NCBI RefSeq assembly: GCF_036227405.1
Contig: NZ_CP109473.1
Coordinates: 8,246,001-8,310,000, forward strand
Source of the DNA: Streptomyces sp. NBC_01460
Lineage (GTDB): Bacteria; Actinomycetota; Actinomycetes; Streptomycetales; Streptomycetaceae
DNA length: 64,000 bases
Direction: 5' to 3'
Made by a program: the position numbers and the translations under genes. Shown here in pieces: positions 5,467-33,953 of the stretch (the stretch's first letter is position 1; each line of letters opens with the position of its first letter). The notes under the pieces are model-generated. The model worked only from the letters and a program-made list of their open reading frames with translations. It had not been told where the DNA came from and made no database searches.

Positions 5467-5472
5467 GGCGCG

Positions 5473-7357: not shown

Positions 7358-7376
7358 TTAGGTTAGCCTGCCCTTA
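7358..7376 (-). promoter_or_regulatory. Iron box (DmdR/IdeR-type operator) before the siderophore importer operon
   Basis: TTAGGTTAGCCTGCCCTTA as read on the plus strand closely matches the actinobacterial iron-box consensus TTAGGTTAGSCTAACCTAA, with the best match in the left half. It ends six bases before the ATPase start codon, so it should cover the promoter or transcription start. Iron-loaded DmdR1 is expected to repress here. Confidence 0.8.
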
Positions 7377-8938: not shown

Positions 8939-8957
8939 TGAGCTTAGGCTCACCTAA
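8939..8957 (+). promoter_or_regulatory. Iron box before cchB
   Basis: TGAGCTTAGGCTCACCTAA matches the iron-box consensus very well in its right half (TTAGGCTCACCTAA). It lies 90 bases upstream of the cchB start. Together with the box at 8833-8851 it gives each arm of the divergent promoter its own operator. Confidence 0.88.
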
Positions 8958-10405: not shown

Positions 10406-10522
10406 CCCGCACGGGCGGACCTGTTCCGGGGCTTGCCACCCGGTGAGAGGGAGGAGCAGCACCGCGCGGCTGCCCAACTGGCCGCGCGTTCCCCGAAGAT
10501 CAAAGGGATATCGTACGTCGAC

Positions 10523-12639: not shown

Positions 12640-13527
<888 letters not shown>

Positions 13528-13553: not shown

Positions 13554-13572
13554 TTAGGCTAGGCTAACCTCA
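13554..13572 (+). promoter_or_regulatory. Iron box 1 before cchF
   Basis: TTAGGCTAGGCTAACCTCA is one of the best matches in the window to the DmdR/IdeR consensus, with both half sites good. It lies 27 bases after the cchE stop and 71 bases before the chosen cchF start. This implies an internal iron-repressed promoter within the cch operon. Confidence 0.88.
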
Positions 13573-13602: not shown

Positions 13603-13642
13603 TTCGGGTGTAGCTGACAGCGTGAAAGCAGGGGAATCAAGG

Positions 13643-14741: not shown

Positions 14742-16529
14742 GTGAGCACCACCGACACGCGCGTCGCCCCGGCCACCCTGCGCACAGCCGCCGGAGGCGA
14801 GTCCACCCGCTGGGTCGCCGCGCGCTGCCGCGAGCTGCCGTGGCTCACTTCGGCCACCGTGCTCACCACGGTGGCCGGGGCGGCGCTCCAGGTGCTCCCC
14901 GTGCTCCTGCTCGGCCGGGTCGTCGACGGTGTCGTCCAGGGCGACGACCGCTCGGTCCTGGTCACGATCGGCATCCTGATGGGAGCCGCCGCGCTGCTCG
15001 GCGCGGCGGCCACCGCGGTCTCGACCTACCTGATCGGGCGGTTGGGCGCGGATCTCCTGGCCCAGCTGCGGGAAGCCGCGGTCCGGGCGGTGCTGGGGAT
15101 GCCGAGCGCACGGATCGAACAGGTCGGCCGGGGAGACGTGCTGTCCCGGGTCGGCGACGACGTGGCCGTGCTCTCCAGGGGCATCCGCACGGCCATCCCC
15201 ACGGTGTTCTCCGCCGGTGTGCTGGTCGCCATCGCGACGGTCGGCATGTTCGGACTGGACTGGAGGCTCGGCCTGGCGGGCGCCGGGGCGCTGCCCGCCT
15301 ACGCGCTGGCCCTGCGCTGGTACCTGCCCCGGTCGGCGCCGCTCTACCGGCGGCAGCGGGTGGCCCAGGCCGACCGCGCACAGGCGTTGATCAGCGGACT
15401 GAACGGGATCGACACCGTCCGGGCGTACGGCCTGGAGTCCGCCTTCCGTGAGAAGGTCACCGACCGGTCCTGGCGGGTGCGCGAGTTCGGCATCGAGGTC
15501 TTCCGGATCTTCGGCCGGTTCGTCGGCAGGGAGAACCGCGCCGAGTTCATCGGGCTGGTCCTGATCCTGGTGGTCGGCTACGTCCTCCTGGAGAACGGTG
15601 CCGCGAGCCTGGGCGAGGTGTCGGCGGCACCGCTCATGTTCCACCGGCTGTTCACCCCGCTGGGCGCCATCATGTTCACCTTCGACGAGGCGCAGAAGTC
15701 GGGCGCGAGCCTCACGAGGCTCGTCGGGGTGCTGGGGGAGTCCGCGGACGACCGGCTGGTCGGCGACGCCTCGGTGGCGGCCGCGGACGCCGTGCCCTAC
15801 CCCGTGACGGTGGAGGGGCTCACCTTCCGCTATCCCGGCGCCGAGGACCCGGTCCTGCGGGACGTCGACCTGACGATCCCGGCGGGCGGCTCGCTCGCCC
15901 TGGTGGGAGCGACCGGCGCGGGCAAGTCGACGCTGGCCGCCCTGATCGCGGGCATCGGGACTCCGGACGCCGGATCCGTGCGCATCGGGCCGCACGACCT
16001 CGCGGACATGGACGAGGCGGGCGCGCGGGCCCTCGTGAGCATCCTGACGCAGGAGACACACGTGTTCTCCGGTCCGCTCGCCGACGACCTGCGGCTGGCC
16101 GCGCCACGCGCGACCGACGCCGAGCTGACGGACGCACTGCGCACGGTCGGCGCGGTCGGCTGGGTCGAAGCGCTGCCCGACGGACCGGCCACCCCGGTCG
16201 GCGAGGGCGGCGAACGCCTGGACGTCACCAAGGTCGCCCAGATCGCCCTGGCCCGGCTGGTGCTCAACCGGGCTCCGGTGGTCGTGCTCGACGAGTCGAC
16301 CGCCGAAGCGGGCAGCGAGGGCGCGGCCGAGCTGGAGCGGTCCGTGCGGGCCGCGTGCGCCGGCCGGACCACGCTGTTCGTGGCCCACCGGCTGACCCAG
16401 GCGATGGCCGCCGACCGGATCGCGGTACTGGACGCGGGGCGCGTCGTGGAACAGGGAACGCACGAGGAGCTGGTGGCTCTCGGCGGTCGGTACGCACGAC
16501 TGTGGCGGGCCTGGCGCGAGGGCAGTTAG
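14742..16529 (+). CDS. cchG: ABC exporter half-transporter (CchG), with degenerate signature motif
   Basis: 595 residues, GTG start without a clear ribosome site. Residues 30-330 are a six-helix type I exporter membrane domain, and 345-595 the nucleotide-binding domain. Walker A (GATGAGKST, 389-397) and Walker B with catalytic Glu (VVVLDES, D517 E518) are intact. The LSGGQ signature, expected near 490-496, is replaced by [13 protein letters not shown], and the D-loop is AEAG instead of SALD. With its partner CchI, 11 kb downstream, it should form a heterodimer that exports coelichelin. See the finding on complementary ATP sites. Confidence 0.9.
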
Positions 16530-16587: not shown

Positions 16588-19500
16588 ATGACGGATCAGA
16601 CTGCTCGCCTCGTGCTGCTTTCCCCCACGAGCCTGGACGACATACGCAGGCGGACCGGCGGATACCCGGACAGGACCATCGCCGGGGCGTGCGCCATCGG
16701 CCTGTCGTACTGGGCGACGGGCCGCAGCCCCGAGGGCATCGACCTCACCCCGGGCACCCTGTTCGCCGACGTCCTGCGCTGGGTCGACAACGGCGGTGCC
16801 GCACCCGCCGGCTGGGAGACCGGCGCCGACGGCAGGAGCATCACCACCCCCGACGGCGTCGAGCCGGCCGCAGCACAGCTCGCGCTGGACGACCTCGCGG
16901 ACTTCCCGGACCGGCCCGTCGGCACCATCGGCCCGACCGGAGCGGCGGAGAGGGCCGGCGCCCTGGCCCGATGGAACGACACCGAGGCCGACCGGGTCCG
17001 CCCGACCCTGGTGGAGATGTTCCGCGAGCAGGTCCGGAGCAGGCCGGACGCCGTCGCCATCGTCGACGAGCACCGGACACTGACCTACCGTGAGGCAGCG
17101 GAACTCTCCGGCCACCTGGCCCACCACCTGATCGCGCGCGGACTCACCGCCGAACAGGTCGTGGGCGTCTCGCTGGGCCGCTCCGCCGACATGGTGATCG
17201 GGCTGCTCGGCGTGCTCCAGGCGGGGTGTGCGTTCGTGCCCCTCGACCCGCAGTGGCCGGCCGCGCGGCGCGCCGTCGTCATCCAGGACGCCCGGGTCGT
17301 CCTGCAGCTCGACGACTCGGGCCGCGGGCGCGACGGAGAGCCGGAGGCCGTCGCGGTCGACCTCTCCGACTGGGGCCACGGCTCCTGGCCCGCCGAGGGG
17401 CCCGAGGTCGACGTGCCCGGCGCCGCCCTGGCCTACGTGATCTTCACGTCCGGATCGACCGGCCGGCCCAAGGGCGCCATGATCCGGCACGAAGCGATCA
17501 GCGAGCGCCTGCTGTGGCAGTCCGAGGAGATCCTCGGCTTCGGCCATGACGACGCGTCACTCTTCAAGGCGCCGCTGTCCTTCGACATCTCCATCAACGA
17601 GATCTTCCTGCCCCTGGTGCGCGGCGGCCGGCTGATCGTCCTGCGCCCCGGCGGCGAACGCGACCCCCAGCACCTCCTGAGCGTGCTGGCCGAGCAGCGT
17701 GTGACCTTCACCTACCTGGTGTCGTCCATGCTGGACGTGCTGCTGGAGATGGCGGGAGACTCCGGGCGGCTCGACAGCCTGCGGCACGTGTGGTGCGGCG
17801 GGGAGGTGCTGACCCCGGAGCTGTACGAACGCTTCCGGACCCGGCTCGACATCCCCCTGTACCACGGCTACGGCCCCGCGGAGACGACGATCGGTGTCTC
17901 GCACGTCATCTACCGGGGTGAGGCGGAGCGCCTGTCGACGTCCATAGGCAGGGCGAACCCCAACACCCAGCTGTACGTGCTCGACGACGAGCTGCGCCCG
18001 GTCCCCGTCGGGGTCGGCGGCGAGCTGTACGTCGGAGGGTTCCTCCTGGGGCGCGGGTACGTCAACGCCGCCGGACTCACGGCGTCCCGGTTCGTCGCGA
18101 ACCCGTTCGCGGGGGACGGCTCCCGGCTGTACCGGACCGGCGACCTCGCGCGGTTCGCCCCGGACGGGTCACTGGACTTCCTCGGCCGGGCCGACAACCA
18201 GATCAAGATCCGCGGCATGCGTCTGGAGATCGAGGACGTCGAGATCGGTCTCGCGGAGCACCCCGCGGTCCGGCACACCTGCGTCGTCGCGAAGAAGAAC
18301 ACGGCGGGCGGCACCTACCTGGTGGGGTACGTCATCCCGGCCGCCGGCAGCGAGGAACTGCACGGCGACGAGGTCAGGGCGTGGGCCGACGAGCACATGG
18401 TGGAGTACATGGTGCCCACCCACATCGTCGTGCTGGACGCGTTCCCCCTCACCGCGAACGGCAAGATCGACCGGGTCGCCCTGCCGGAACCCCGTATCGG
18501 GACGGGCTCGCTCGTCCTGCCCACCACCGACGACGAGCGCCTGGTGTGCGAAGCCGTCGCCACCGTGCTGCGCCTGGACCAGGTCGGCGTCGACCAGGAC
18601 TTCTTCCGGCTCGGCGGGGACAGCATCCTGGCCATCTCGCTGCTCGGCGCACTCCGCGGGGCCGGCCTCTACGTGACGGCACGGCAGATCTTCACCCACA
18701 GCGTCGTCGGCGCCCTGGCGGCGGTCGTGAGCCGCGAGGACGCCTCCGCCGCGGAACACGGCGACGAGGCGACCGGCACCGTCGTCGGCTCGCCCGTCGT
18801 GCAATGGCTCGGCGAGACCACGGACGCGATCGACGGCTTCGTGCAGTCGGTCGTCCTGAACACCCCCGCGGAGCTCACCGCGGAGGCCCTGGACGAGATC
18901 CTCACCGCCGTGGTGGAGCGGCACGACATGCTGCGCGCCGCACTGGTGCGCGGCGACCGCTGGAGCTTCGACATCCCGGAGGCGGACCGGACCTGCGGGA
19001 CCGTCGCCCGGTGGCAGGAGAGCGACCTCCCGCTGGACGCCTGCGTCGAGCGCGCCACGGAGGGGCTCGACCCGGACGGCGGCGTCATGCTGCGGGCCGT
19101 CTGGCGCCGCGAGGCACGGCAACTGGTCCTGGTCGCCCACCACGTGGTGATCGACGGTGTGTCCTGGCGGATCCTCATGGAGGACCTGGCCACCGCCTGG
19201 AACGGCCTCACCTCCGGTGCGGGTGTGGAGCTCCCGCCGGTGGGGACCTCGTTCCGCCGCTGGACCCAGCTGCTGGAGGGCGCGGGATTCGAGGCGGACC
19301 GTGCGGCCTGGGAACGTCCGCTGCCGGGCACGGACGCGCCCCTGGGCCGGCGCGCCCTGGCGGAGACCGACACCGTGGCCGGGGAACGGACCCACGTCGT
19401 ACGGGTCGGACCCGAGGCCACGGCCGCGCTGCTGGGAGAGATCCCCGGCCTGTTCCACGCGGGCGTCAACGACGTGCTGCTGACCGCGCTCGCCGTCGCG

Positions 19501-22500
19501 CTGGCCCGGTGGCGCCGCGACCTCGGTCAGGACCAGACCTTCGCGCACATCGAACTCGAAGGACACGGCCGCGAAGGGCGGTTCGTGGCGGAGAGCGCCG
19601 GCTTCGAGCCGGAACTGTCACGGACCGTCGGCTGGTTCACCACCCTGTTCCCGGTGGTCGTGGACCCCGGCGCGGCGGCCGACCTCACCTCCCCGGACTA
19701 CCTGGCCGCCGCCCTCAAGGCGGTCAAGGACGATCTCGGACGCGTGCCGGGCAACGGCCTCTCCTACGGCGCCCTGCGCTATCTGACCGACGCCGGGCTG
19801 GAGACCCCGGCGCCCCAGGTGCTCTTCAACTACCTGGGCCGCTTCGACTCGGGCACGTCGGGGGACTGGGAGTTCGCCGGCGCCACCGGGCAGCTGGGCG
19901 AGAAGCGCGACCCCGCGATGCGTCTGCCGCGCGTCCTGGAGTTCAACGCGGTCGCCGAACCCGCGTCGAGCGGCGCGTACGAACTGACCACCACCCTCTC
20001 CTGGCCCGACGGGGTGTTCGCCGACGCGGACGCCACGGCCATCGGCGCCTACCTCCGGGAGGCCCTGACCGGCCTCGCCGGCCTCGACCGGGGCGGCCAC
20101 TCTCCCGGCGACTTCCCCCTGGTGGCCCTCGTCCAGACCGACGTCGACGCCCTGGACGGACCGGGGCTCCGGGACATCCTTCCCCTGACCCCGTTGCAGG
20201 AGGGCCTCTACTTCCACTCGGTCTTCGACGACGACTCGGCGGGCAGCTACGTCGAACAGCAACTGCTCACGCTCGAGGGCGAGGTGGACGCCGACAGACT
20301 CGCGGCGGCGGCCACCCGGCTCCTCACGCTGTACCCGAATCTCGCCGCCCGCTTCACCGCCCTCGCCGACGGACGCGTCGTCTCCGTGCTGGAGAGCGGG
20401 GTGGCGGCACCCTTCACCACACTGGACCGCCCCGGCATCAGTGACGCCGAGATCCGCGACCACGCCGAGCGTGACCGTCGCGCGGGGTTCGACCTGGCCA
20501 CGGGCCCGTTGATGCGGTACACCCTCATCCGGGCGGGCTCCGGCAGGAACATCCTGGTGCAGACCGTGCACCACATCATCGCCGACGGCTGGTCGGTGCC
20601 GCCGATGCTCCGGGCCCTGCTCGCCGAGTACCACGCGCCGGGCAGCCTCTACCCGCTCGGCGGCTTCACCGACTACGTGCACCGGCTCGCCGGACTCGAC
20701 GACGAGGAGAGCGACCGGGTCTGGCGCGAGCAGCTCGCCGGTCTGCCCGGCCCCTCCCTCGTCGCCGACGGACACACCCCGTCCGACCGGTTCGACGACA
20801 CCGCGGTCGAGCCGGAGGACGACGTCGAGGCGGCAGCCCGGTCGGCGGGCGTGCCGCTGAGCGTGGCCGTGCACAGCGCCTGGGCGGTGACGCTGGGAGG
20901 CATCCTGCACAGCGACGACGTCGTGTTCGGCTCCACCGTCTCCGGCCGTGACGCCGAGGTGCCCGGCATCGAGGACATGGTCGGCCTCTTCATCAACACG
21001 ATCCCCCTCAGGGCCCGCTGGGACGGATCCACCACCGCCGGCGACCTCCTCGCCTCCGTGCGGGAGCACCAGAGCGCGGTGCTGGCGCACCAGCACGTCT
21101 CCCTGGCGGCGATCGGCCGGCAGGCCGGCGGCGGCTCCCTCTTCGACACCCTGGTGGTCTTCGACGTCGCGACCGACGTGGAGGCCCTGCGGCAGCCCGG
21201 CGACGAGCTGGCCGTCACCGGCATCGTCAACGAGGGAGCCCCCCACTACCCGCTGACCCTGGTCGTGGAGCGGACCTCCGCCGGCCGCCCGCGCTTCAAC
21301 CTGATCCACGACGGCGAGCTGCTCCGGGAGCCGGGCGCCCGGGCGGTCCTGGGCACGTTCACCCGGACGCTCACCGGCCTGCTCACCCGGCCGGACACCC
21401 GCGTGGAGGAGCTGGGCCACGACGAGGCCCGGCGTCCCGCGCCGGTCGCCCCCACCTCCCTGGGCGCCCTGTTCGACGCCGCCGCGGCCCGTGCCCCGCA
21501 GGCGACGGCCGTCACCCACTGCGCTCTCGACGGCGGGACCCGGTCACTGACCTACGGCGAGCTGGCCGAGGCGAAGGACGAGCTGGCAGCGGCGTTGCGC
21601 GCGGCCGGCGTCGGGCCGGGCAAGCGCGTCGCCGTCGCCGTACCGCGTTCCCCGGAGCAGGTCGTCGCCCTTCTCGCGATCGTGAGCGCGGGCGGGGCCT
21701 ACGTACCCCTCGACCTGGCCTACCCGGACGAACGGCTGGAGTACATCCTGACCGACGCCGCGCCGCAGGTCGTGCTCGTCGACCATGAGCAGCGGGCCCG
21801 GTTCACGGACCTGCTGAACCGGGCCGCGGGGGCGCCGCGGGCGCGCCTGCTCGTTCTGGGGGAGGAGCTGCCGCAGGAGGCCGCGCCGACGGCGGCGACC
21901 GCCGAAGCCGGCTGGCACGATCCCGCCTACGTGATCTACACGTCCGGGTCGACCGGCCGGCCCAAGGGCGTCGTCGTCCCGCACTCCGGTGTGGTGTCGC
22001 TGCTCGCGAACACCCGGCCCGACATGGGCTTCGGCCCCGACGACGTCTGGGTCCAGTTCCACTCGTACTCCTTCGACTTCGCGGTCTGGGAGCTGTGGGG
22101 CGCCCTCGTGCACGGCGGTGAACTCCTGGTGCCGGAGTACGCGCTGACCCGCTCCCCGGTGGACTTCCACCGGCTGGTCCGTGAGCGCGGGGTGACCGTG
22201 CTCAACCAGACCCCGTCGGCGTTCTACCGGTTCGTCGAGGCCGACCAGCACGCCGGCGAGCCCCTCCCCGCGCTGCGCCGGATCATCTTCGGGGGCGAGG
22301 CGCTGGACCTCGCCCGGCTCCGCGGCTGGACCGAGCGCCACGGCACCGGTTCGCCGGAGCTGGTCAACATGTACGGCATCACCGAGACCACCGTCCACGT
22401 CACCCACCGGGTGCTCACCGACGAGGACTTCGCCGCCGACGTCAGCCCCATCGGCGGCCCCGTCCCCGGCCTGACCACCTATCTGCTCGACGACCGGCTG

Positions 22501-25500
22501 CGCCCCGTACCGCCCGGCAGGGTGGGCGCGATCTACGTCGCCGGGGACCAGGTGTCGCTCGGCTACCTGGGCAGGCCGGGGCTCACCGCGGGCCGTTTCG
22601 TGGCGAACCCGTTCGCCGGCGACGGATCCCGGATGTACCACACGGGCGACCTCGCGCGCCGCACGCTCGACGGCGAGCTGGAGTTCGCCGGCCGCGCCGA
22701 CGACCAGGTGCAGCTCAAGGGGTTCCGCATCGAGCTCGGCGAGGTGGAGACCGCCGTCCGTGAGCTCGACGGCGTGACCGACGTGGCGGTGACCGTCGCG
22801 GACGACGGCGACCACCTCGTCGCCCACGTCGTGGGCCGGGTGCCGGGCGACCTCACCGGTCTCCTGTCCGCGAAGCTGCCCGTGCACATGGTGCCCGGCC
22901 GGGTGCTGACGGTCGACGCCCTGCCCCTGACGGTCAACGGCAAGCTGGACCGGAAGGCCCTGACCGAGCGCGCCGCACAGGACGGCACGCCGCCGGTCAC
23001 CGCGAGCGACTCCGCGCTCGCCGAACTGGTCGGGATCTTCGCGGAGACGCTGCCCGGCTCGCCCGACGTGGACGGTGACACCGACTTCTTCTCGGCGGGG
23101 GGCGACAGCATCGTCGCCATCACCGTCATCAACCGGGCCAGGGCGCTCGGCCTGCCGATCACCCCGCGGGACGTGTTCCTCCTCAAGACGCCCCGAGCGC
23201 TCGCCGAGCACCTGGGAGCAGGGGCGCCCCGGGCCGAGGTGCCCGGGCCCGCCCTCCGCGAGGACGGCCCGCTCATGCCCACGCCGATCATCCTGCGCCA
23301 GCGGGAACTGGGCAGCTCACTCGCACGGTTCGTCCAGGCCAGGGCCCTGATGGCCGCCGAGGGCACCGGTCTCGCCGACGCGCAGCGGGCGGCGGAGGCC
23401 GTCGTGGCGGCTCACCCGGCGCTCCGGCTGCGCCTGCACGTGAGGCACGGCGTGTGGAACCTCAGCACCGAGGCCTCCCGCCCGGTCACCGTCGTACCGG
23501 TGGACACCGACGCGACGGCCGCGGCGAACGAGGCGGCCGGACGACTCGACCCCGAGTCCGGCGACGTCATCGCGTTCTCCTGGCTGGAGGCCTGCCGGAC
23601 CCTGGTGGTCACCGTGCACCACCTGGCCGTCGACTCCGTGTCCTGGCTGGTCCTGCTGGACGACCTCACCACCGCACTGCGCGGCGGGACGCTCCCGCCG
23701 CCGACCACGTCCTACGCCGAGTACGCCGAAGCCCTGAACCTCACGCCCGCCGGCGGGAGCGACGACCTCGGCCACTGGATCACCACGCTCCAGGCCCCCG
23801 CTCTCCTGCCGGTGGCCGAGAGGCCGCGGGGGACCACGGTCGTGCTCACCCCCGAGGTCAGCGACCGGGTGACGCGCACCGCGCCCGCCGCGCTCGGCAT
23901 CGGGCTCACCGAGCTGCTGTGCGGCGCGCTCCGGACCGCGCTGACCCACGTCCAGCCGGTGCCCACCGATCTCGCCGTCGAGCTGGAGCGGCACGGCCGG
24001 GTCCCCGCGCGGGAGCACCACGACTACACCCGCACGGTCGGCTGGTTCACCTCGATCGCCCCGGTGCGCCTCACCGCGCACACCGACCCCGTCGCCGCGG
24101 CCCGCGAGGTCGCCGCACGGCAGCCCGACGAGCACGGACACGTCGCCTACGGCCGGCTCCGGTATCTCGACCCGCAGACCGCCCTCCTGCTGACGGCCCG
24201 TCCGCAGGTGCTGTTCAACTACCTCGGCCGGGGCAGCGAGTCCCAGGCGCTGCACATCACCGGCGGGGACCAGGGAACCCCGTACGCCGTCGAGGTCAAC
24301 GCGTGGATCGACGAGCCCACCGGGAGCCTGCACGCGGCGTTCACGCTCGCCGACGGCATCCCCGACGAGGTGACCGTTCACTGGCGCAGGGCACTCGAAC
24401 ACATCGCGGACGCCTCCTCCACCGCCGAGCGCACCGCCCCGGTCACCCCGCTCCAACGGGGCCTGTACTTCCAGGCCCAGATGGCCGGGGCGGCCGGACA
24501 CTACGTCGCGCAGAGCTACTTCACCTTCGACCGGCGCCTGGACGCCGACGCGCTGTCCGAGGCGATGGCCCACGTCATCGCACGGCACCCGGTCGTGGGC
24601 GCCGGCTTCACCACCGACGACGACGGCAACCCCGTCCAGGTCCTCAAGGCGGGCCGGCGGGTCGGCGTCCGTACGGTCGCCCTGCGGACGGACGCGGACG
24701 TCGACGCCCTGCGGGCCGAGGACCGCGACACGGGATTCGACCCGGGCGAGCCGCCCCTGATCCGGCTGACCCTCGTCCGTCTCCCCGGCGGAGGCGACGG
24801 CCTGCTGCTCAGCTACCACCTGCTGCTGTGGGACGGCTGGTCCCGCGAGATCCTGCTGCGGGACCTGTTCGACGCCTACCGGACCGTCCTCGCGGGCGGG
24901 ACACCGGACCCGGCCCCGGCCGTACCGAGCTTCGAGGAGTACGCCCGCGGGCTCGACGCCAGGGATCCCGCGGTGTCGGAGCGCTTCTGGGCCGAGCACC
25001 TGACCGGCCTCACCGGCCCGACGCTCCTCGCCGGACCGGCGCCGTCCCTCCCCGACGAGCTGCCGCGCGCGCTCGTGCACACTCTCTCCGCCGAGCGGTC
25101 GGACCTCCTGCGGGAGGCGGCCAAGGCGCACGGAGTCACCCTGAACACGGTGCTGACCGGCGCGTTCGGTCTGTTGTTGGGCGCGCACACGGGACGGAGC
25201 GACGCCGTGTTCGGCGTGACCGTCTCCGGCCGGGAGGGTGAGGGCCTGTCCGGCATCGTCGGCGTGCTCCTCAACACCGTGCCCATGTGGACACGGGCAC
25301 GGCCGGACGCCACGGTCCGGGAGTACCTGTCCGCCGTCCAGACCGCCCGGGTCGAGGCGATGGAGCACGAGCACCTGGGGCTCGGCGAGATCCAGCGGGC
25401 CAGCGGCCACGACACCCTCTTCGACAACCTCTTCGTGCTCCAGAACTTCCTCGACCTGGACGCGTTCGCCGAGATGAACGCCAGGCACGGCATCACGGCG

Positions 25501-27492
25501 GTGAAGGCCGACGACTCGACGCACTACCCGTTCACCTGGGTCGTCACCCCCGGCGACCGGCTCACGGTCAAGCTGGAGCACCGCGACGACGACTCCGCGA
25601 AGGCCCGCCGCCTCGTCGACGACTACCTGCGTGTGCTCGAGGACCTGGCCCGCTCCACAGGGCCGGTCGGCGCGCTGCCCGGCCTCGGCCGGGCCCCCGA
25701 GCCCGGCGGGCGTACGGACATCGGCATCGACACCGTCGTCGACCGCTTCGACGAAGCCGCCGGCCGGGCCCCGGAGCGGACCGCCCTCGTCGCCGACGGC
25801 GCGACGATGACCTTCGCCCAGCTCAGGGACCGCAGCCGTGCCGTGGCGGGGGTACTCGCCCGGCGGGGCATCGGCCCGGAGACGACCGTGGGCCTCGCGA
25901 TCCCGCGCTCCCTCGACTCGATCGTGGCCCTCTTCGCCGTACTGCGCACCGGGGCCGCCTATGTCCCGCTGGAGCTGGACCACCCGGACGAGCGGATCGC
26001 CGCGATCGTCGACGCGGCGCGGCCGGACGTGATCCTCACGGTGAGCGCCGTGTCACCCCGGCTGACCGGCGACCTGATCGAACTCGACCGGCCCCTGCCG
26101 GCGGCCGAGCCGGTCGTCACCTTCGCGCCGGGCGCCCCGCACCGCCTGCGGCACCCCGCCTACACCATCTACACCTCCGGATCGACCGGCAGGCCCAAGG
26201 GCGTGGTGACCGAGTACGCAGGGCTCACCAACATGCTGATCAACCATCAGCGCCGCATCTTCGAACCGGTGCTGGCGGAGCACGGGCACCGGATCTTCAG
26301 GATCGCGCACACCGTGTCGTTCGCGTTCGACATGTCGTGGGAGGAGCTGCTGTGGCTCGCCGACGGCCATGAGGTGCACATCTGCGACGAGGAACTGCGC
26401 CGCGACGCACCCCGGCTGGTCGCGTACTGCCTGGAGCACGGGATCGACGTCATCAACGTGACCCCGACCTACGCGCAGCAACTGGTCGCCGAGGGACTGC
26501 TCGACGACCCGGGGCGACGGCCCGCGCTGGTCCTGCTCGGCGGCGAGGCCGTCACCCCCACCCTGTGGCAGCGGCTCGCGGAGACCGGGGGGACCGCCGG
26601 GTACAACCTGTACGGGCCCACCGAGTACACCATCAACACCCTCGGCGTCGGCACCTTCGAGTGCCAGGACCCGGTGGTGGGCGTGGCGATCGACAACACC
26701 GACGTGTACGTGCTGGACCCCTGGCTGCGCCCGCTGCCGGACGGGGTCCCCGGCGAGCTGTACGTGTCGGGCATCGGCATCGCACGGGGCTACCTCGGGC
26801 AGCCCGCCCAGACCGCGGACCGCTTCGTCGCGTGCCCCTTCGGTGAACCCGGCGAGCGCATGTACCGCACCGGTGACCTGGTCGTCCGGCGGCCCGACGG
26901 CAACCTGATGTATCTCGGCCGCACCGACCAGCAGGTCAAGATCCGGGGACACCGCGTCGAACTCGGCGAGGTCGAGGCGGCGTTCGCGGCCCACCCCGCC
27001 GTGCGGTTCGCCGCCGCGGTCGCCCAGCCCGACCCGCAGGTCGACGGCGCGTACCGGCTGGCGGCCTACCTGGTGCTGGACGGTTCGGACCTGGCGGCCG
27101 TCGCCGCCGAGGTGGGCACGGCGCTGCCGGACTTCCTGCGCCCGACCCACTACGCCCAGGTCGACAGCATCCCGCTCACCGTGAACGGCAAGGCCGACAC
27201 GAAGGCGCTGCCGGAGGCCAAGCCGCTCGGTGTGCTGACCACCGGAGCCGAGCGCGGTCCCGGCACGGAGACGGAGACCGTGGTCTGCGAGTTCTTCGCC
27301 GAGGCACTGGACCTCGACGACGACGAGGTCAGCGCGGTCAGCGACTTCGTGTCCCTCGGCGGGCACTCCATGCTGGCGGTGCGGCTGATCGGTCTGCTCC
27401 GCAGGGAGTACGGTCCTGTGATCACCATCCGTGATCTGCTCACCCTTCGAACCCCGGAAGCGATTGCGCGCCACCTTGAAGACAACATCTGA
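16588..27492 (+). CDS. cchH: Trimodular coelichelin NRPS (CchH)
   Basis: 3,634 residues, ATG start with GGAAGG upstream. Domain order: N-terminal leader 1-125, A1 130-630 (Lys626), PCP1 (GGDS, Ser679), E1 735-1185 (HHVVIDG at 851), C2 1190-1610 (HHIIADG at 1328), A2 1625-2125 (Lys2119), PCP2 (Ser2174), E2 2228-2610 (HHLAVD at 2344), C3 2615-3030 (YHLLLWDG at 2743), A3 3050-3540 (Lys3535), PCP3 (GGHS, Ser3594). There is no thioesterase. Specificity codes read from the A4-A5 region and A10 are DINYWGGIGK (formyl-hydroxyornithine), DFWNIGMVHK (Thr) and DMENLGLINK (hydroxyornithine). E domains predict D-residues from modules 1 and 2. This is the coelichelin architecture. Coelichelin is a tetrapeptide, so module 1 must act twice. 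Confidence 0.97.
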
Positions 27493-27493
27493 C

Positions 27494-29179
27494 GTGCACA
27501 GGCCCCGCCCGGGGGCCGACATCCTCCGGACCGCCCTGCGCCGCAACGCCGGCGCGGTGGCCCGGGGCACAGCCCTCATGGGCCTCTACCAGGCGGGAGA
27601 GACGGCCTTCCCCATCGCGCTCGGCCTGATCGTGGAACACACGATGCGGGACCGGAGCCTCGGCTCGCTGGGTCTGTCGATCGCCTCGCTCGCCGTGATC
27701 ATCACGACGGTCTCGCTGTCGTGGCGGTTCGGTATGCGGGTCCTGCAGAAGGCCAACACGACCGAGGCGCACCGCTGGCGGGTGCGCGTGGCGGCCTGCG
27801 GTCTCCAGCCGGTGGCCAGGGACGTCGACCTGAAGTCCGGCGAGGTGCTGACCATCGCCACCGAGGACGCCGACCAGACGGCCGACATCGTCGAGGTGGT
27901 GCCGCTGCTCGTCAGCTCGCTGGTCGCGGTGGTGGTCGCGTCGGTCGCCCTCGGTCTCGCCGACATCCGGCTCGGCCTGCTGGTGATCGTGGGTACCGTG
28001 GCGATCCTGTCGGTGCTGAGCGTGATGTCCCGGCGGATCGGGGCCAGTACCCGTGAACAGCAGGCCAGGGTGGCACGGGCGGGGGCCAAGGTCGCCGACC
28101 TGATCACCGGCCTGCGTCCGCTGCACGGCTTCGGCGGCAACCACGCGGCGTTCGTGTCGTACCGGAAGGTCAGTACGGAGGCGAGACACCAGGCGATCAC
28201 CGTCGCCCGGGTGAACGGCGTGTACGCGGGAACCGCGCTGGCCCTCAACGCCGTGCTGGCCGCGACGGTGACACTGACGGCGGGCTGGCTGGCGTACGGA
28301 GGCCGGATCACCATCGGCGAGCTCGTCATGGCCGTCGGGCTGGCGCAGTTCATCATGGAACCGCTGAAGATGTTCTCGGAGATGCCCAAGTACGTGATGA
28401 TGGCGCGCGCCTCGGCCGACCGGATGGCACTCGTTCTCTCCGCGCCGCCCCTGACGGACCCGGGCCACGAGCAGCCCGAGGCGGGCGGGGACCTGGAGAT
28501 CGACTGCGTCCGGTACGGCACCCTGCAGGCACTCAAGTTCCACGTGCGCTCCGGGGAGTTCGTGGCGATCGCCTCCTACCAGCCACGCTCGGCGGCCGAT
28601 CTCGCGTCGGTCCTGGGCGCGAACGTGCCACCCCGGGCGTACGGGGGCGTGGTGCGGGTCGGCGGGCGGGAGATCGCGGACCTCTCGGTCGAGGCGCTGC
28701 GCGCGCACATGCTGGTGAACCCCTACGACGGGGAGATCTTCGAGGGCAGTCTCCGCACGAACATCGACCCGTCGGGCACCAGCCGGCTGGTCGACGAGGC
28801 CGTCGAGGCGTCGCTGCTGACCGATGTCGTCGCCCTCCACCGCGAGGGCCTCGACCACGGTGTGCGTGACCGCGGCGCGAACCTCTCCGGGGGACAGCGC
28901 CAGCGGCTGTCCCTGGCCCGTGCCCTCGCCGCGGACTCGGAGGTCCTCGTCCTGCACGACCCGACGACGGCGGTCGACGCGGTCACCGAACAGCTCATCG
29001 CGCGGAACATCGCGAAGCTGCGCAAGGGCCGCACCACCGTCGTGCTCACCAGCAGCCCCGCCCTGCTGGACGCGGCCGACCGTGTCCTCGTCCTGGACGA
29101 CGGGGTCGTCACGGCCGAGGACACCCATCGCCGTCTCCTCGCCGCCGACGAGGACTACTGCCGGGCCGTGGCGCGGTAG
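27494..29179 (+). CDS. cchI: ABC exporter half-transporter (CchI), lacking Walker A
   Basis: 561 residues from the GTG that follows the cchH stop by one base; the open frame extends further back only across cchH. Residues 20-310 are a six-helix type I exporter domain and 320-561 the nucleotide-binding domain. The signature NLSGGQRQRLSLARAL (464-468) is perfect, but the Walker A position reads FVAIASYQPRSAADL (356-370), with no GxxGxGKS. The residue after the Walker B Asp is Pro490 instead of the catalytic Glu (LHDPTT). It cannot bind ATP normally on its own side but supplies a good signature to CchG. It probably exports the finished siderophore. Confidence 0.9.
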   Translation: MHRPRPGADILRTALRRNAGAVARGTALMGLYQAGETAFPIALGLIVEHTMRDRSLGSLGLSIASLAVIITTVSLSWRFGMRVLQKANTTEAHRWRVRVAACGLQPVARDVDLKSGEVLTIATEDADQTADIVEVVPLLVSSLVAVVVASVALGLADIRLGLLVIVGTVAILSVLSVMSRRIGASTREQQARVARAGAKVADLITGLRPLHGFGGNHAAFVSYRKVSTEARHQAITVARVNGVYAGTALALNAVLAATVTLTAGWLAYGGRITIGELVMAVGLAQFIMEPLKMFSEMPKYVMMARASADRMALVLSAPPLTDPGHEQPEAGGDLEIDCVRYGTLQALKFHVRSGEFVAIASYQPRSAADLASVLGANVPPRAYGGVVRVGGREIADLSVEALRAHMLVNPYDGEIFEGSLRTNIDPSGTSRLVDEAVEASLLTDVVALHREGLDHGVRDRGANLSGGQRQRLSLARALAADSEVLVLHDPTTAVDAVTEQLIARNIAKLRKGRTTVVLTSSPALLDAADRVLVLDDGVVTAEDTHRRLLAADEDYCRAVAR

Positions 29180-29246: not shown

Positions 29247-29849
29247 TCAGCGTGTCCGGCCGGCTGCCTCCAGGGAGTCGAGCCACCGGAGGAGGCGGGC
29301 TCCCTCGCGGGTCATGATGTCCGGGTCCCGAAGGGCGTTCGCCAGAAGCGACATGCCCTGGTAGCCGGAGACGAGGGTGACGGCGAGGCCCTCCGGATCG
29401 GTCAGCCCCATGGCGCGGAACTGCAGCCCGACCCAGTCGAGCAGCCGCTGGATCACCGCTCCGGCCTCCGCGTCGAGGGTGCCCTCGGCCCGCTTGTCGA
29501 GCTCGGCGGCGAGGGTGCCGGTAGGGCAGCCGTGGCGGGCGGCGACGTCACGCCGGCCGACCCAGGCCTCGATCAGGGTCTTCAGGCGTTCGCGCGGGTC
29601 GGTCAGCTGGTCCAACGCCCCGGTGAGTTCGTCGAGGTGTGCGCTGTGCTCGGACAACGCGGCCCGGACCAGTTCGTCCTTGGTCTTGAAGTAGTAGTAG
29701 ACGTTCCCGACGGGAACTCCGGCCGCGCCCGCGATGTCGGCGAGCGTGGTGCGTTCGACGCCCTGCTCGTGGAGGACCTGGGCCGCCGCGGCGGTGAGCC
29801 GTAGGCGCTTGTCGGCTGCGCGCGCCGCGGGATTCACTGAGTCAGTCAC
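29247..29849 (-). CDS. TetR-family repressor
   Basis: 200 residues from the GTG beginning VTDSVNPAARAADKR; an ATG at 29891 is in frame but would add an unusual N-terminus. The HTH (about 12-60) includes RTTLADIAGAAGVPVGNVYYYFKTKDEL, typical TetR. The C-terminal ligand domain has the TetR_C layout seen in regulators of short-chain dehydrogenase or NmrA genes. It is divergent from the NmrA-like gene with a 16-bp operator-like palindrome between them, so it most likely represses the NmrA-dehalogenase pair and itself. It lies inside the cch locus and is probably not a siderophore gene. Confidence 0.88.
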   Translation of the reverse strand: MTDSVNPAARAADKRLRLTAAAAQVLHEQGVERTTLADIAGAAGVPVGNVYYYFKTKDELVRAALSEHSAHLDELTGALDQLTDPRERLKTLIEAWVGRRDVAARHGCPTGTLAAELDKRAEGTLDAEAGAVIQRLLDWVGLQFRAMGLTDPEGLAVTLVSGYQGMSLLANALRDPDIMTREGARLLRWLDSLEAAGRTR

Positions 29850-29898
29850 CTGAATAACTCTAGCCGCCCATGGAGGGCGTGCTACGGTCACGGAACTT

Positions 29899-29914
29899 AG
29901 TTAGTCAACTAACT
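29899..29914. promoter_or_regulatory. Probable TetR operator
   Basis: AGTTAGTCAACTAACT has perfect 7-base inverted arms around CA. It sits 14 bases upstream of the NmrA-like start and 49 bases upstream of the TetR start, where it can block both divergent promoters. Confidence 0.75.
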
Positions 29915-29928
29915 CATGGGAGACACTC

Positions 29929-30747
29929 GTGATCGCAGTGACCGGGGCCACCGGAAACGTCGGCCGTGAACTGATCCGCATCCTCGACGAGGCCGGAGAG
30001 GCGATGACCACGATCTCGCGCGGCGAGGCGCAGGGCGTGCCCGCCGGCGGCCGGCATGTGCGGGCCGATCTCGCCGATCCCGACAGCCTGCGTTCCGCAT
30101 TCGACGGTGCGGACGCGCTGTTCCTCCTGGTGGCCGGTGACGACCCGCAGGGCGTCCTCGACTCCGCCGAGGCGGCCGGCATCCGCCGGGTCGTCATGGT
30201 CTCCTCCCTCGGCGTCGCCACCCGGCCGGACGCCTACCGCCACCCCGCGGCCTTCGAGGCGGCGCTCCGCGGCTCGGGGCTCGACCGGACCGTGCTGCGC
30301 TGCGGCGGGCTGAACTCCAACGCCTTCGCGTGGGCCGGGTCGATCCGTGCCGACCGGGTGGCTGCCGCCCCGTTCGGCGACGTGGGCCTGCCGATGGTCG
30401 ACCCGGCGGACGTCGCGGAGGTCGCCGCGGCCGCGCTGCTGCGACCCGGCCACGCCGACGCCGTCTACGAGCTCACCGGCCCGGCCCCGACCACCCCGCG
30501 CGAGCGGGCGGCGGCGATCGGCGCCGTGCTGGGCGAGCCGGTCCGCTTCGTCGAGCAGAGCCGCGAGGAGGCACGGGAGCAGATGCTCGCGTTCATGCCC
30601 GAACCTGTCGCCGAAGGCACCCTCGCGATCCTCGGAGAGCCGCTGGCCGCCGAGCGCCGGGTGAGTCCCGACGTCGAGCGGGTCCTGGGCCGTGCGCCGC
30701 GCCCCTTCGCGGACTGGGCCGCCCGCAGTGCCGCCGCCTTCCGCTGA
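29929..30747 (+). CDS. NmrA/NAD(P)-binding Rossmann oxidoreductase-like protein
   Basis: 272 residues, GTG start with GGGAG nine bases upstream. The N-terminal dinucleotide-binding motif is AVTGATGNVGREL, followed by VRADLADPDSL and VVMVSSLGVAT, as in atypical short-chain dehydrogenases of the NmrA/YtfG type. No YxxxK catalytic pair is evident, so it could be a quinone reductase of the QOR2 type or a redox sensor. It is followed after 44 bases by the haloalkane dehalogenase and divergent from TetR. Confidence 0.85.
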   Translation: MIAVTGATGNVGRELIRILDEAGEAMTTISRGEAQGVPAGGRHVRADLADPDSLRSAFDGADALFLLVAGDDPQGVLDSAEAAGIRRVVMVSSLGVATRPDAYRHPAAFEAALRGSGLDRTVLRCGGLNSNAFAWAGSIRADRVAAAPFGDVGLPMVDPADVAEVAAAALLRPGHADAVYELTGPAPTTPRERAAAIGAVLGEPVRFVEQSREEAREQMLAFMPEPVAEGTLAILGEPLAAERRVSPDVERVLGRAPRPFADWAARSAAAFR

Positions 30748-30791
30748 ACCGACGACACGTCATACACCTCATCGCACCCCTGGGAGAACAC

Positions 30792-31694
30792 ATGCCGACC
30801 ACTCCTGTCCTCTCCACCACGATCTTCCACCGCGAGTCGGGCTCGGGCACGCCGATCGTCTTCCTGCACGGCAACCCCACCTCCTCGTATCTGTGGCGGA
30901 ACGTTCTGCCGGCCGTCGGCCGGGGCCGCCTGCTCGCCCCCGACCTGATCGGCATGGGCGACTCCGGCAAGCCCGACATCGACTACACCTTCGACGACCA
31001 CGCCCGCCATCTCGATGCCTGGTTCGAGGCGCTCGGCCTCGACGGAGTCGTCCTGGTCGGCCACGACTGGGGCGGCTCGCTCGCCTTCGACTTCGCCGCC
31101 CGCCACCCCGGCCGGGTCCGCGGCATCGCCTTCACCGAGACCATCGTCAAACCGATGACCTGGGAGGAGTTCCCCGAGGGCGGCCGTGAGCTGTTCTCGG
31201 CCATCAAGACCGAGGGAGTGGGGGAGTCCATGATTCTCGACGACAACGTCATGATCGAGAAGGGCCTGCCGGGAACCGTCGCCACCCCGCTCGACCGCGA
31301 GGATCTGGCGGCCTACCTGCTGCCCTACCCCACCCGGGAGAGCCGCAGGCCGCTGCTGCAGTGGCCGCGCGCCATGCCGCTCGGGGGCGAGCCCGCCGAC
31401 GTGGTGGCCCGCATCGAGGCGTACGACGCCTGGCTCGCGGCCAGCGTGGACGTCCCCAAGCTGCTGATCGACTTCGCTCCGGGCCCCGGCGCCATGATGG
31501 GCCCCGAGACCGTCGCCTGGTGCGAGCGGCACATGGCGGCCCTGGAGGTCGAGCGCCATGACGTCGTGGCTGGGCACCACACCCCGGAGGACCGCCCCGC
31601 CGAGATCGCCGCGGCGGTTTCCGCCTGGGCGGACCGGCACGGGCTGCGCCATGACGCCCCGGCCCGGCGGGTGCGGACGCGCGAGGCGGCCTGA
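30792..31694 (+). CDS. Haloalkane dehalogenase (HLD subfamily II-like)
   Basis: 300 residues, ATG with GGGAG seven bases upstream; the open frame starts earlier only over the NmrA gene. Alpha/beta-hydrolase fold. The full haloalkane dehalogenase set is visible: nucleophile Asp92 in GHDWGG, halide-binding Trp93, second halide-binding Asn28 in HGNPTSSYLW, catalytic acid Glu116 after strand 6 (TETIVKP, where DhaA/LinB have Glu) and catalytic His262 in AGHHTPED. This is the subfamily II arrangement (DhaA, LinB). It should hydrolyse carbon-halogen bonds of haloalkanes to alcohols. Natural substrates of such enzymes in Streptomyces are unknown. It probably shares an operon with the NmrA gene. Confidence 0.9.
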   Translation: MPTTPVLSTTIFHRESGSGTPIVFLHGNPTSSYLWRNVLPAVGRGRLLAPDLIGMGDSGKPDIDYTFDDHARHLDAWFEALGLDGVVLVGHDWGGSLAFDFAARHPGRVRGIAFTETIVKPMTWEEFPEGGRELFSAIKTEGVGESMILDDNVMIEKGLPGTVATPLDREDLAAYLLPYPTRESRRPLLQWPRAMPLGGEPADVVARIEAYDAWLAASVDVPKLLIDFAPGPGAMMGPETVAWCERHMAALEVERHDVVAGHHTPEDRPAEIAAAVSAWADRHGLRHDAPARRVRTREAA

Positions 31695-31713: not shown

Positions 31714-32847
31714 TCACGCGAGTGCCCAGGCCACGTCCCTGAGCAGGGCGTGGCGCCAGCCCGCCCGGTCGTGACCGGACGGCGACCGTGATACGCGTAC
31801 GGTCGCCCCGGCCTGCCGGGTGAGGGCCTCGGCCGCCTCGCAGTGGGAGAGCATCCTCGTCTCGTGCTCCCCGACGTCGAACGCGATCCGCAGCCCTGAC
31901 AGATCGGGAGTCTCCGCCAGACGTGCGGCGATCGCGCCGCCGACCACCCCACCCAGGGGGTCCGCCCGCTCCGGGGCCCCCGGGGCCCACCAGAACGACG
32001 GGGACTGACAGGCGACGCGCGACACGAGGTCAGGGAACTCCAGTGCCGCGTACATCGCGCTCAGCCCGCCGAGGCTCTGCCCGGCGACCACCAGCCGGTC
32101 CCAGTCGGCGGGCACACCGGATGCCTCGACCAGGGAAGGCAGTTCGTCCCGGACCGCCTCCCACAGGGCGGGCTCGCACCCGAATTCGGCCTCCCGGTCC
32201 ACGGCCGGCACGAAGACGAGGGTGACGGGCGGCATGTCGCCGGCGGCGACGGCCGAGTCGAACGCGGTCATGGCCGGATGGAGGTACAGCCAGTCGTCCC
32301 CGTCGAGCAGCAGGACCACGGGCCCGCCGCCCCCCGAAGGATGGACGCGTACGGTCCTTCGCCCGCCGAGCCGCCCGCCTGCCCACCGGACCCGGGTGCG
32401 CGGGACGGGCAGGACGTCGTCGGCCCCGATGCCGGGCCAGTGCGGCTGGGGCGGGGTGTCCGGCGTCGCGACGACGGACCGGTCACCGCCCGCCCCGTCG
32501 GGGTTGAACGGGTCGGCGTACGCGCCGTCGTCCGCGAGGAACTGATAGGTCACCCGCAGGCGTGCGGGCATCCGTACCTCCGCGTACCAGCAGTCGGTGT
32601 CGCCCCGGCGGCGCAGGGGGACGGCTTCCGACCAGCTCTCGAAGCCGATGCTCGCCGGCGACCCCCGCCACAGGAACAGCGTCACCCAGCCGCCGTCGTC
32701 GGCCGGTACCGACACGGGAGTTCGTACGGCCGACCAGAAGGCGTCGGTGCCGGGGCTGCCGGACACCCCGAACGCGGAGAACGGCTCGACCGCACCGGTA
32801 GCGAGGTCGTCGGCGGTGGTGCCGACCCGGTCCGTGACCCGGCGCAT
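31714..32847 (-). CDS. cchJ: Siderophore esterase/hydrolase, Fes/IroE type (CchJ)
   Basis: 377 residues from the ATG with AAGGAG six bases upstream; an in-frame GTG six codons earlier lacks a site. Residues 1-165 are an N-terminal Ig-like enterochelin-esterase domain, and 170-377 an esterase-D-type alpha/beta hydrolase with nucleophile Ser in VAGQSLGGLSA and a C-terminal His in SGHDRAGWRHAL. There is no signal peptide, so it is cytoplasmic. In S. coelicolor, CchJ is proposed to release or hydrolyse coelichelin, and CchH here has no thioesterase. It lies 47 bases after argB in the same direction, so it is probably expressed from the iron-boxed argB promoter. Confidence 0.9.
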   Translation of the reverse strand: MRRVTDRVGTTADDLATGAVEPFSAFGVSGSPGTDAFWSAVRTPVSVPADDGGWVTLFLWRGSPASIGFESWSEAVPLRRRGDTDCWYAEVRMPARLRVTYQFLADDGAYADPFNPDGAGGDRSVVATPDTPPQPHWPGIGADDVLPVPRTRVRWAGGRLGGRRTVRVHPSGGGGPVVLLLDGDDWLYLHPAMTAFDSAVAAGDMPPVTLVFVPAVDREAEFGCEPALWEAVRDELPSLVEASGVPADWDRLVVAGQSLGGLSAMYAALEFPDLVSRVACQSPSFWWAPGAPERADPLGGVVGGAIAARLAETPDLSGLRIAFDVGEHETRMLSHCEAAEALTRQAGATVRVSRSPSGHDRAGWRHALLRDVAWALA

Positions 32848-32894: not shown

Positions 32895-33890
32895 TCAGGT
32901 GACGGCGACCTGGCGTCGTGGGGTGCGGGGGGCCCGGATGGTGCGGGTCCCGAGGTCGTCGCAGCCGTCACCGCCGCTCGACGGGAACACGGTGGTGCCG
33001 GGGGCCGTCTCGTCGAGCAGGCAGCGCAGGACGGCGTGCGGCACGCGGCCGTCGAGCACGTGCGCCCGCCGCACACCGCCGCGGACGGCCCGCAGACAGC
33101 CCTCCATCTTCGGCAGCATGCCGCTGGTCAGCGTCGGCAGCATCGTGTGCAGGGCGTCGGCGGTCATCCGCTCGATCACGTCGGTGCTGCGCGGCCAGTC
33201 CGCGTACAACCCCTCCACGTCGGTCAGCATGACGAGGCGTTCGGCCCCCAGGGCCACGGCCAGGGCCGACGCGGCGAGATCGGCGTTGACGTTGTAGACC
33301 TGCCCGTCCTCGCCGCGCGCCACAGGGGAGACCACCGGGATGTGACCCTGCGCCAGGAGCGCGCGCAGCATGGCCGGATCCACGTCCACGACGTCCCCGA
33401 CGAGGCCTATGTCCACGGGGCGGCCGTCCACCCAGGCCGGACGCCGGACCGCTGTCATCGAGTGCGCGTCCTCACCCGTCAGGCCCACGGCGTACGGTCC
33501 ATGGGCGTTGATGTGGCCGACCAGCTCACGCTGGACGCGCCCGGCCAGCACCATCCGCACCACGTCCATGGTCTCCGGTGTGGTCACCCGGAGTCCTGCC
33601 TCGAAGCGGGTCTCCAGGCCCAGCCGGTCGAGCATGGCGCTGATCTGGGGACCCCCGCCGTGTACGACGACAGGGCGCAGGCCCGCGTGCCACAGCTCCA
33701 CGACGTCCTGCGCGAACGACCGCTGCAGGCTCGCGTCCACCATGGCGTTCCCGCCGAACTTGACGACGACCGTGCCGTGCGCGGGTTCCTCCGGACGGTG
33801 GGGTGACCCGGCGGGTGGATCCGCGTCCGCCTGTTCCATGAAGGCCGGTCCCATCCCTGTCCCCACCCCGTTCGGTTGTCCAACTGGCAT
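32895..33890 (-). CDS. argB: Acetylglutamate kinase paralogue linked to the coelichelin locus
   Basis: 331 residues. The amino-acid kinase core is complete: KFGGNAM (44-50), [21 protein letters not shown], the nucleotide/substrate motif [23 protein letters not shown] and [13 protein letters not shown]. It phosphorylates N-acetylglutamate, the second step to ornithine. The N-terminus differs from that of typical Streptomyces ArgB: where those have a helix (LIEALPWL-like) before KFGG, this one is Pro/Gly-rich. The C-terminal segment also diverges ([12 protein letters not shown]). The start is ATG 33890, with ATG 33854 or 33839 possible. It is the first gene of an argB-cchJ unit under an iron box, apart from any arginine operon. 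Confidence 0.88.
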
Positions 33891-33934
33891 GCGAGCGGCC
33901 GAGGTTCCTTCTCGTGAAGCCCACCCGGCGCGGT

Positions 33935-33953
33935 GGAGGTAAGCCTAACCTAA
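33935..33953 (-). promoter_or_regulatory. Iron box before argB-cchJ
   Basis: The plus strand reads GGAGGTAAGCCTAACCTAA. Its right half (CCTAACCTAA) is perfect and its left half good. It is centred about 54 bases upstream of the argB start, a normal operator position. It places argB and cchJ in the same DmdR regulon as the rest of the siderophore genes. Confidence 0.85.

Follow-up and report, generated by a model that had tools for sequence, protein, structure and literature searches.

We identify a second acetylglutamate kinase gene, argB2, inside a siderophore cluster of Streptomyces sp. NBC_01460. The window, by which we mean the whole 64,000-nucleotide stretch that was analyzed, corresponds to C1:8246001-8310000 of an 8.8-Mb genome. 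We take its genes cchA, cchB, cchC-F, cchG, cchH, cchI, and cchJ to be the coelichelin set, which by gene content is complete. On the reverse strand lies cchB, encoding a hydroxyornithine formyltransferase (7848-8795; PF00551/PF02911). The forward strand carries cchA for the ornithine N5-monooxygenase (9047-10405; PF13434), cchC, cchD, and cchE for the permeases and ATPase of ferri-siderophore import (10433-13527; PF01032 twice, PF00005), cchF for a binding protein (13622-14698; PF01497), the ABC exporter genes cchG (14742-16529) and cchI (27431-29179; both PF00664/PF00005), and between these cchH, an open reading frame for a non-ribosomal peptide synthetase (NRPS) of 3634 residues (16588-27492), pieces of which match the NRPS of related cchJ-bearing loci at ~67-95%. 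Consensus matching places iron boxes on the forward strand between cchB and cchA (8939-8957) and ahead of cchF (13554-13572). The siderophore esterase gene cchJ follows on the reverse strand (31714-32847; PF00756, with the enterochelin esterase model below its cut-off). Between cchI and cchJ, at 29247-31694, sequence inspection points to TetR-like, NmrA-like, and dehalogenase-like hydrolase genes; in loci L037 and L096 cchI and cchJ adjoin directly. A second FecCD-like permease and ATPase set, 37-46% identical to cchC-E and with an iron box at 7358, is located upstream of cchB (3412-7271, reverse strand).

argB2 occupies 32895-33890 of the reverse strand, 331 codons counted from the first ATG, and 47 bases separate its stop from the ATG of cchJ (32847), exactly the interval given in the first-pass annotation. 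The start is uncertain because the best database match (P0001, 319 residues, 97% identical) begins at codon 13, position 33854, and the next match (P0002) at codon 18; translation probably begins at 33854 or downstream of it. ArgB2 is a complete kinase that scores 247.6 bits against the TIGR00761 acetylglutamate kinase model (curated cut-off 151.3), contains the PF00696 domain, and has as its top PDB match the acetylglutamate kinase 7nlf (1.2e-92), which we take to be the M. tuberculosis enzyme. [LysW]-type models also match, under their cut-offs. Seven catalytic and substrate positions, presumably equivalent to K8, G44, G45, R66, N158, D162, and K217 of the E. coli enzyme, are unchanged in the window protein and in 94 of 94 rows of the core ArgB2 alignment. 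dN/dS ranges from 0.14 to 0.22 in seven ArgB2 pairs (0.14-0.18 for the four pairs involving the window) and from 0.06 to 0.18 in three canonical ArgB pairs, values that place ArgB2 under purifying selection. The gene had been described as lying away from any arginine operon, in a reading that presupposed another argB elsewhere in the genome. Both points hold: a full-length canonical argB is present in an argC-argJ-argB-argD operon at about C1:1534400-1538800 (argD by sequence inspection), 6.7 Mb away, making argB2 the second argB of this genome.

Upstream of argB2 is a DmdR-type iron box (33935-33953, reverse strand), the 19-mer TTAGGTTAGGCTTACCTCC, found with a search consensus that we compared with the DmdR1 sites given by PMC7174319 (Table 1). 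Its 17-mer core, TTAGGTTAGGCTTACCT (33937-33953, reverse strand), has 0 mismatches to a 17-mer consensus having one N, and the box differs from the full published 19-mer at 3 positions. The strong box announced by the first-pass annotation is therefore present, but its distance of about 54 bases needs correcting to 46 (first ATG) or 82 (codon 13). An iron box near the promoter, one mark of DmdR1 regulon members, is found at argB2. At up to 3 mismatches the window holds 8 matches (5 sites) versus 0.04 expected per window from shuffles, and the whole genome has 4 perfect matches, including the argB2 box, and 44 matches versus 7 with the reversed pattern. Recurrence weighs more as evidence. Across the window and related loci, with protein duplicates removed and ~350 bases searched upstream of each unit, the best box lies within 3 mismatches in 79 of 100 distinct ArgB2-like units and within 4 in 85; the remaining 15, one of which offered just 35 bases to search, have no box within 4. 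The reversed consensus gave 0/100 within 4 mismatches, and upstream of canonical argC in 15 genomes no box was found and nothing matched within 6 mismatches. Shuffles, the reversed-pattern control, and recurrence above related units together rule out a chance occurrence. The commonest form, TTAGGTTAGGCTAAGCTAA, occurs in 29 units and also precedes the S. cinereoruber gene CP977_03980, part of a scabichelin cluster that PMC7174319 reports to be raised by iron restriction. The same source describes an increase of the S. coeruleorubidus coelichelin cluster under iron restriction, and L151, from that species (a species-level match to the strain of PMC7174319), has argB2. Apparently, argB2 is under iron control via a putative DmdR box.

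In acetylglutamate kinases (NAGKs) with arginine feedback, an N-terminal helix joins dimers into hexamers, and arginine binds beside it and moves the lobes apart (PMC3329491); arginine-insensitive NAGKs are described as having no such helix (PMC4490483, PMC3329491), and the arginine-site motif E-(L/I)-(F/M)-(T/S)-X-X-G-X-G-T includes a key Glu (PMC4490483). All 21 canonical Streptomyces ArgBs in the comparison have an intact helix, read as IEALPWL, and an intact LLEIFTDEG block. In the aligned window protein no helix precedes K[FY]GG, the N-terminus is rich in Pro and Gly as first annotated, and the arginine-site motif is gone together with its surrounding block. A helix hidden in upstream coding sequence can be ruled out: the frame measures 349 codons from stop to stop, and the 18 codons beyond the first ATG offer no alternative start and extend into the iron box, so that no room is left in frame for a helix. 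An AlphaFold model of low confidence (23-row alignment, mean pLDDT 69.9), with no helix in residues 1-39 and a first strand at residue 40, adds weak support for helix loss. The 103 other aligned rows, duplicates included, comprise 3 with the full helix motif (L057, L061, L062), 12 that retain an LPWLE stub, and 88 that match neither pattern, with fainter traces (LPWPEEL, PWREEL) in some of these.

The key Glu falls at index 281, counted along the P. aeruginosa chain in agreement with H268 and G287 of PMC10464499. With seven further loci, found by a looser pattern, joining the count at this column, Glu is present in 21/21 canonical ArgBs and 3/3 helix-bearing siderophore copies and in 0 of 94 core rows, where the residue is Gly (76), Ser (14), Ala (3), or Cys (1). 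The window protein has Cys, as do P0001-P0005 and P0007 among seven fetched database relatives; P0009, L060, L063, and L064 have Gly. The altered C-terminal block of the first-pass annotation is thus confirmed, as is the absence of the N-terminal helix, in the alignment and in the low-confidence model. Its expectation for the arginine site as a whole fares less evenly: the Glu and its block are lost, but the Arg of AERL and the His of AHVLDGR are kept, in columns (AE[KR]L and AHxxDGR) that we take to be part of the arginine site. This assignment has partial support from a key Lys named in PMC4490483 and from mutants described in PMC10464499. Canonical Streptomyces ArgBs carry T and R at these columns in 21/21 cases, which makes their own arginine sensitivity an assumption. 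At the level of sequence, the predicted loss of arginine feedback in ArgB2 is well supported.

ArgB2 belongs to a widespread lineage. Among the matches listed for 150 Streptomyces genomes, this one included, core ArgB2 occurs in at least 24, a looser relative in at least 4 more (G093, G071, G051, G059), and an ArgB of the L063/L064 type in G127 and G108. In a second collection, the best 80 of 206 loci comprise 79 from Streptomyces and 1 from an actinobacterium. Although the loci were picked by kinase similarity with context ignored, 95 of 100 distinct loci have siderophore-type genes near argB2, defined as at least one gene resembling the window cch proteins at ≥35% identity, a call that is thin for a few (L162 has a single ATPase at 37%). 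cchJ is present in 62, a cchB-type formyltransferase without cchJ in 8, and other monooxygenase or FecCD-type genes in 25. Four of the five others (L044, L130, L146, and L163) are contigs or stretches 4-16 kb long; the fifth, L060, has no siderophore gene nearby or in further 19-kb stretches on either side.

The first-pass annotation missed a wider module around the kinase. A GNAT protein resembling N-acetylglutamate synthases (NAGS) is encoded beside it in 85/100 loci, and argC, argJ, and argD together in 28/100. The best solved relatives of this GNAT are the N-acetylglutamate synthases 2r8v/2r98 of N. gonorrhoeae (2.1e-10) and the amino-acid acetyltransferase 5yge (2.2e-5); its score is below the curated NAGS cut-offs, so we can only infer a NAGS function. 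It has no amino-acid-kinase domain, the part through which arginine acts in long NAGS. Its gene (for example L036 9223-9738) lies mostly on the strand opposite to argB2 and has its own iron box in a number of loci; a survey of 197 genomes of the order detects it in 31, which all belong to a single genus out of six. The argB2 unit frequently opens with an isochorismatase-family hydrolase, and close by stands an Amidohydro_3 hydrolase that in L049-L051 has a separate iron box; these hydrolases recur around argB2 (L037 9008-9694, L048 11006-12577, and counterparts) and perhaps act in amide or acyl hydrolysis during ornithine or siderophore turnover.

An IQ-TREE phylogeny built from 124 rows groups the 21 canonical ArgBs together (100/97), and the window protein nests outside that group among the paralogues of other strains, which rejects a recent duplication of the strain's canonical argB as the origin of ArgB2. 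On this tree, since found not to be the best, the siderophore-linked L057, which retains helix and Glu, pairs with a clade of the core and L060 (99/99), and L061 and L062 diverge deeper, at weakly supported nodes; the pattern fits recruitment first and erosion later. The L063/L064 lineage belongs to a different siderophore cluster and likewise has neither helix nor Glu. A constrained search that joined it to the core gave a tree 17 log units better, so the 124-row tree is not optimal and its deepest branching is uncertain. Separate losses of the arginine site in the core and in L063/L064 were considered and set aside: a single clade is not rejected by the AU test (p 0.697) and fits better by the same 17 log units. 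In L226, L063, and L064, the helix-less, Glu-less ArgB adjoins monooxygenase and formyltransferase genes in the other type of siderophore cluster, possibly a second recruitment.

As a control we turned to 13 additional genomes with multiple matches, which yielded eight second ArgBs of other lineages; outside this count stand L204, L205, and L207 (L063/L064 type), L203 (a duplicate contig), L202/L215 (a split gene), and L216/L217 (distant, 37-39%). No iron box was found within 4 mismatches near any of the eight in stretches of 10-19 kb. Inspection by eye recognizes the helix segment at full length in 7, with the strict pattern fitting two and missing five through substitutions; Glu is kept in 4 and replaced by Gln in 3, and helix and Glu are both lost in 1 (L212/L218). 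Arginine-site loss common to all cluster-borne ArgBs is rejected by these counts for helix (7/8) and Glu (4/8). The L218 copy, around position 9500 (G061), is accompanied by argJ and argD outside siderophore genes and has no helix, Glu, or iron box. At least five control ArgBs (L219, L221, L222, L223, L225) stand with argC/J/D-type genes near an ornithine-type monooxygenase, as in the cluster described in PMC9866976.

The module appears to have been reduced in this strain. In the close relatives L096 and L112 the order is kinase gene, GNAT gene in reverse, and then cchJ, which has a separate box. Of 100 loci, just two, the window and S. atroolivaceus L093, have cchJ straight after argB2 on the same strand, with gaps of 33 and 113 bases, respectively, as measured between tblastn ends. 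These two, neighbors on the tree (99/74), are also the only ones of 62 cchJ loci in which GNAT is missing. Between argB2 and cchJ of the window there is no iron box within 4 mismatches, whereas L096 and L112 have sites before cchJ. A deletion probably removed GNAT and the cchJ box and placed cchJ under the argB2 box, on which cchJ, having no box of its own, probably relies. The window holds no convincing remnants of GNAT or isochorismatase genes, the whole genome contains no GNAT orthologue (best E 1.8e-4), and one argC scores over the cut-off; ArgB2 must therefore use housekeeping ArgJ, ArgC, and ArgD here, and alone may add little flux. The genome does encode a second ArgJ-type ornithine acetyltransferase over the cut-off (L173 8844-10076, G000:C1:7472000-7490000), for which we saw no iron link. 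Its neighbors resemble what we take to be the early clavam/clavulanate gene set, and this apparent clavam-type location led us to reject it as a partner of ArgB2. cchJ occurs in 30 of the 150 genomes and, among the argB2 matches listed, is adjoined by argB2 in 16 of the 30, which makes argB2 dispensable; judged by this distribution, the module is an enhancement for coelichelin and no requirement.

We propose, as the likely reading and in agreement with the inference of the first-pass annotation, that ArgB2 is an intact N-acetyl-L-glutamate kinase devoted to coelichelin, gated by iron, uninhibited by arginine, and supplying ornithine. At low iron the DmdR repressor would leave the box at 33935-33953, and argB2 and cchJ would be transcribed together. 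ArgB2 would then phosphorylate N-acetylglutamate, the step normally blocked by arginine. The lost helix would have built the hexamer and one half of the pocket for arginine, the lost Glu and loop its other half; with all three gone, ArgB2 should form a dimer or some other non-canonical assembly and escape inhibition by arginine. CchA, CchB, and CchH could in this way be supplied with ornithine while arginine is abundant, with housekeeping ArgC, ArgJ, and ArgD presumably completing the pathway here, and many relatives would bring a NAGS-like GNAT of their own and some also ArgC/J/D. Against this proposal count the siderophore-linked L057, L061, and L062, which keep helix and Glu, and the second ArgBs of other settings that lost both (L212/L218) or carry Gln for Glu (three copies). 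The 15 boxless units, the siderophore-free surroundings of L060, the retained Arg and His, the absence of a GNAT here, and the dispensability of argB2 also weigh against it. Fernandez-Murga and Rubio are said to have found in 2008 that full deletion of the N-helix of P. aeruginosa NAGK abolished inhibition, which speaks against ArgB2 being just an iron-induced extra dose of an ordinary arginine-sensitive kinase. That alternative, in which arginine would act via those C-lobe residues that are left or at a substitute site, draws on the K/R and His of the arginine site retained in the window protein, on the LPWLE helix piece left in 12 relatives and the weaker remnants (LPWPEEL) in others, and on the statement in the review PMC10464499 that inhibition need not go with the hexamer; with the key Glu gone in 94/94 core rows and the helix gone in the window protein, we regard it as unlikely.

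ArgB2 might also be a relic that is no longer important, in a module being lost here: the GNAT and isochorismatase-like genes are gone, argB2 is fused to cchJ, the whole genome is without a GNAT orthologue, and adjacent argB2 is missing in 14 of the 30 cchJ genomes among the matches listed. A dN/dS of 0.14-0.18 in the four window pairs, the intact seven catalytic positions and iron box, and the same GNAT-less argB2-cchJ layout in S. atroolivaceus L093 make such decay improbable. We give very little credence to a shift toward another acyl-amino-acid substrate in siderophore assembly, to which the 64% identity to the canonical ArgB1, the position outside the canonical clade, and the [LysW]-type matches might point, since the acetylglutamate kinase model is exceeded by a wide margin, the catalytic positions are invariant, and relatives pair the kinase with a NAGS-like GNAT and with proteins resembling ArgC, ArgJ, and ArgD. 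Beyond the dedicated, arginine-uninhibited kinase of this cluster, we lean, by a little, toward a broader proposal: several kinds of Streptomyces hydroxamate-siderophore clusters would share an iron-gated, arginine-deaf ornithine module consisting of a short NAGS-like GNAT and a NAGK that, once recruited, had its allosteric helix and arginine pocket worn away, with or without ArgC/J/D. Siderophore ornithine would be split from arginine homeostasis at both feedback steps, and the helix-bearing L057, the stub, and the helix-less forms would record the loss of regulation.

Industry mutates NAGK for the production of arginine and ornithine. If our proposal is correct, evolution has made a feedback-resistant NAGK of its own, under iron control, and living strains offer a test of allostery loss with candidate intermediates. 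argB2 would also be a genome-mining marker for ornithine-hungry siderophore clusters and a handle to raise hydroxamate siderophore titers, and the borders of coelichelin-type clusters would then better take in precursor genes.

We know of no argB2 in the S. coelicolor cch cluster. That cluster (SCO0489-0499) resembles the window in having coelichelin genes with DmdR1 sites (PMC12161575, PMC7174319), and the main text of PMC12161575, on the S. coelicolor iron regulon, does not mention ornithine, arginine, or argB. Judged by titles and abstract openings, the open-access literature searched gave no account of an argB in a Streptomyces siderophore cluster or of an iron-boxed kinase without an arginine site. 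Cluster-borne copies of the ornithine pathway are already known: PMC9866976 describes them in NRPS antibiotic clusters as lun11-14 (lunaemycin), stenJ-M (stenothricin), and HmtB (himastatin). Like argB2, these represent a second argB in an ornithine-consuming NRPS cluster, with argC/J/D in lun and sten; they serve antibiotics, and the description in PMC9866976 makes no mention of feedback loss or iron control. The second ArgBs found here by ornithine-type monooxygenases likewise differ from ArgB2 in having a recognizable helix and no iron box, the lun, sten, and hmt genes themselves being compared by description only. The dimeric, arginine-insensitive NAGK of E. coli shares with ArgB2 the absence of the N-terminal helix (PMC4490483, PMC3329491), but it is far more distant (1gs5, 3.3e-25, versus 7nlf, 1.2e-92). 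The canonical ArgB of the argCJBD operon is of the same family, 64% identical over residues 40-305 and with the same catalytic residues; unlike ArgB2, it has the N-helix and the LLEIFTDEGIGT block and belongs to an operon without an iron box. By sequence comparison, ArgB2 seems to have lost helix and block within a family of arginine-sensitive type.
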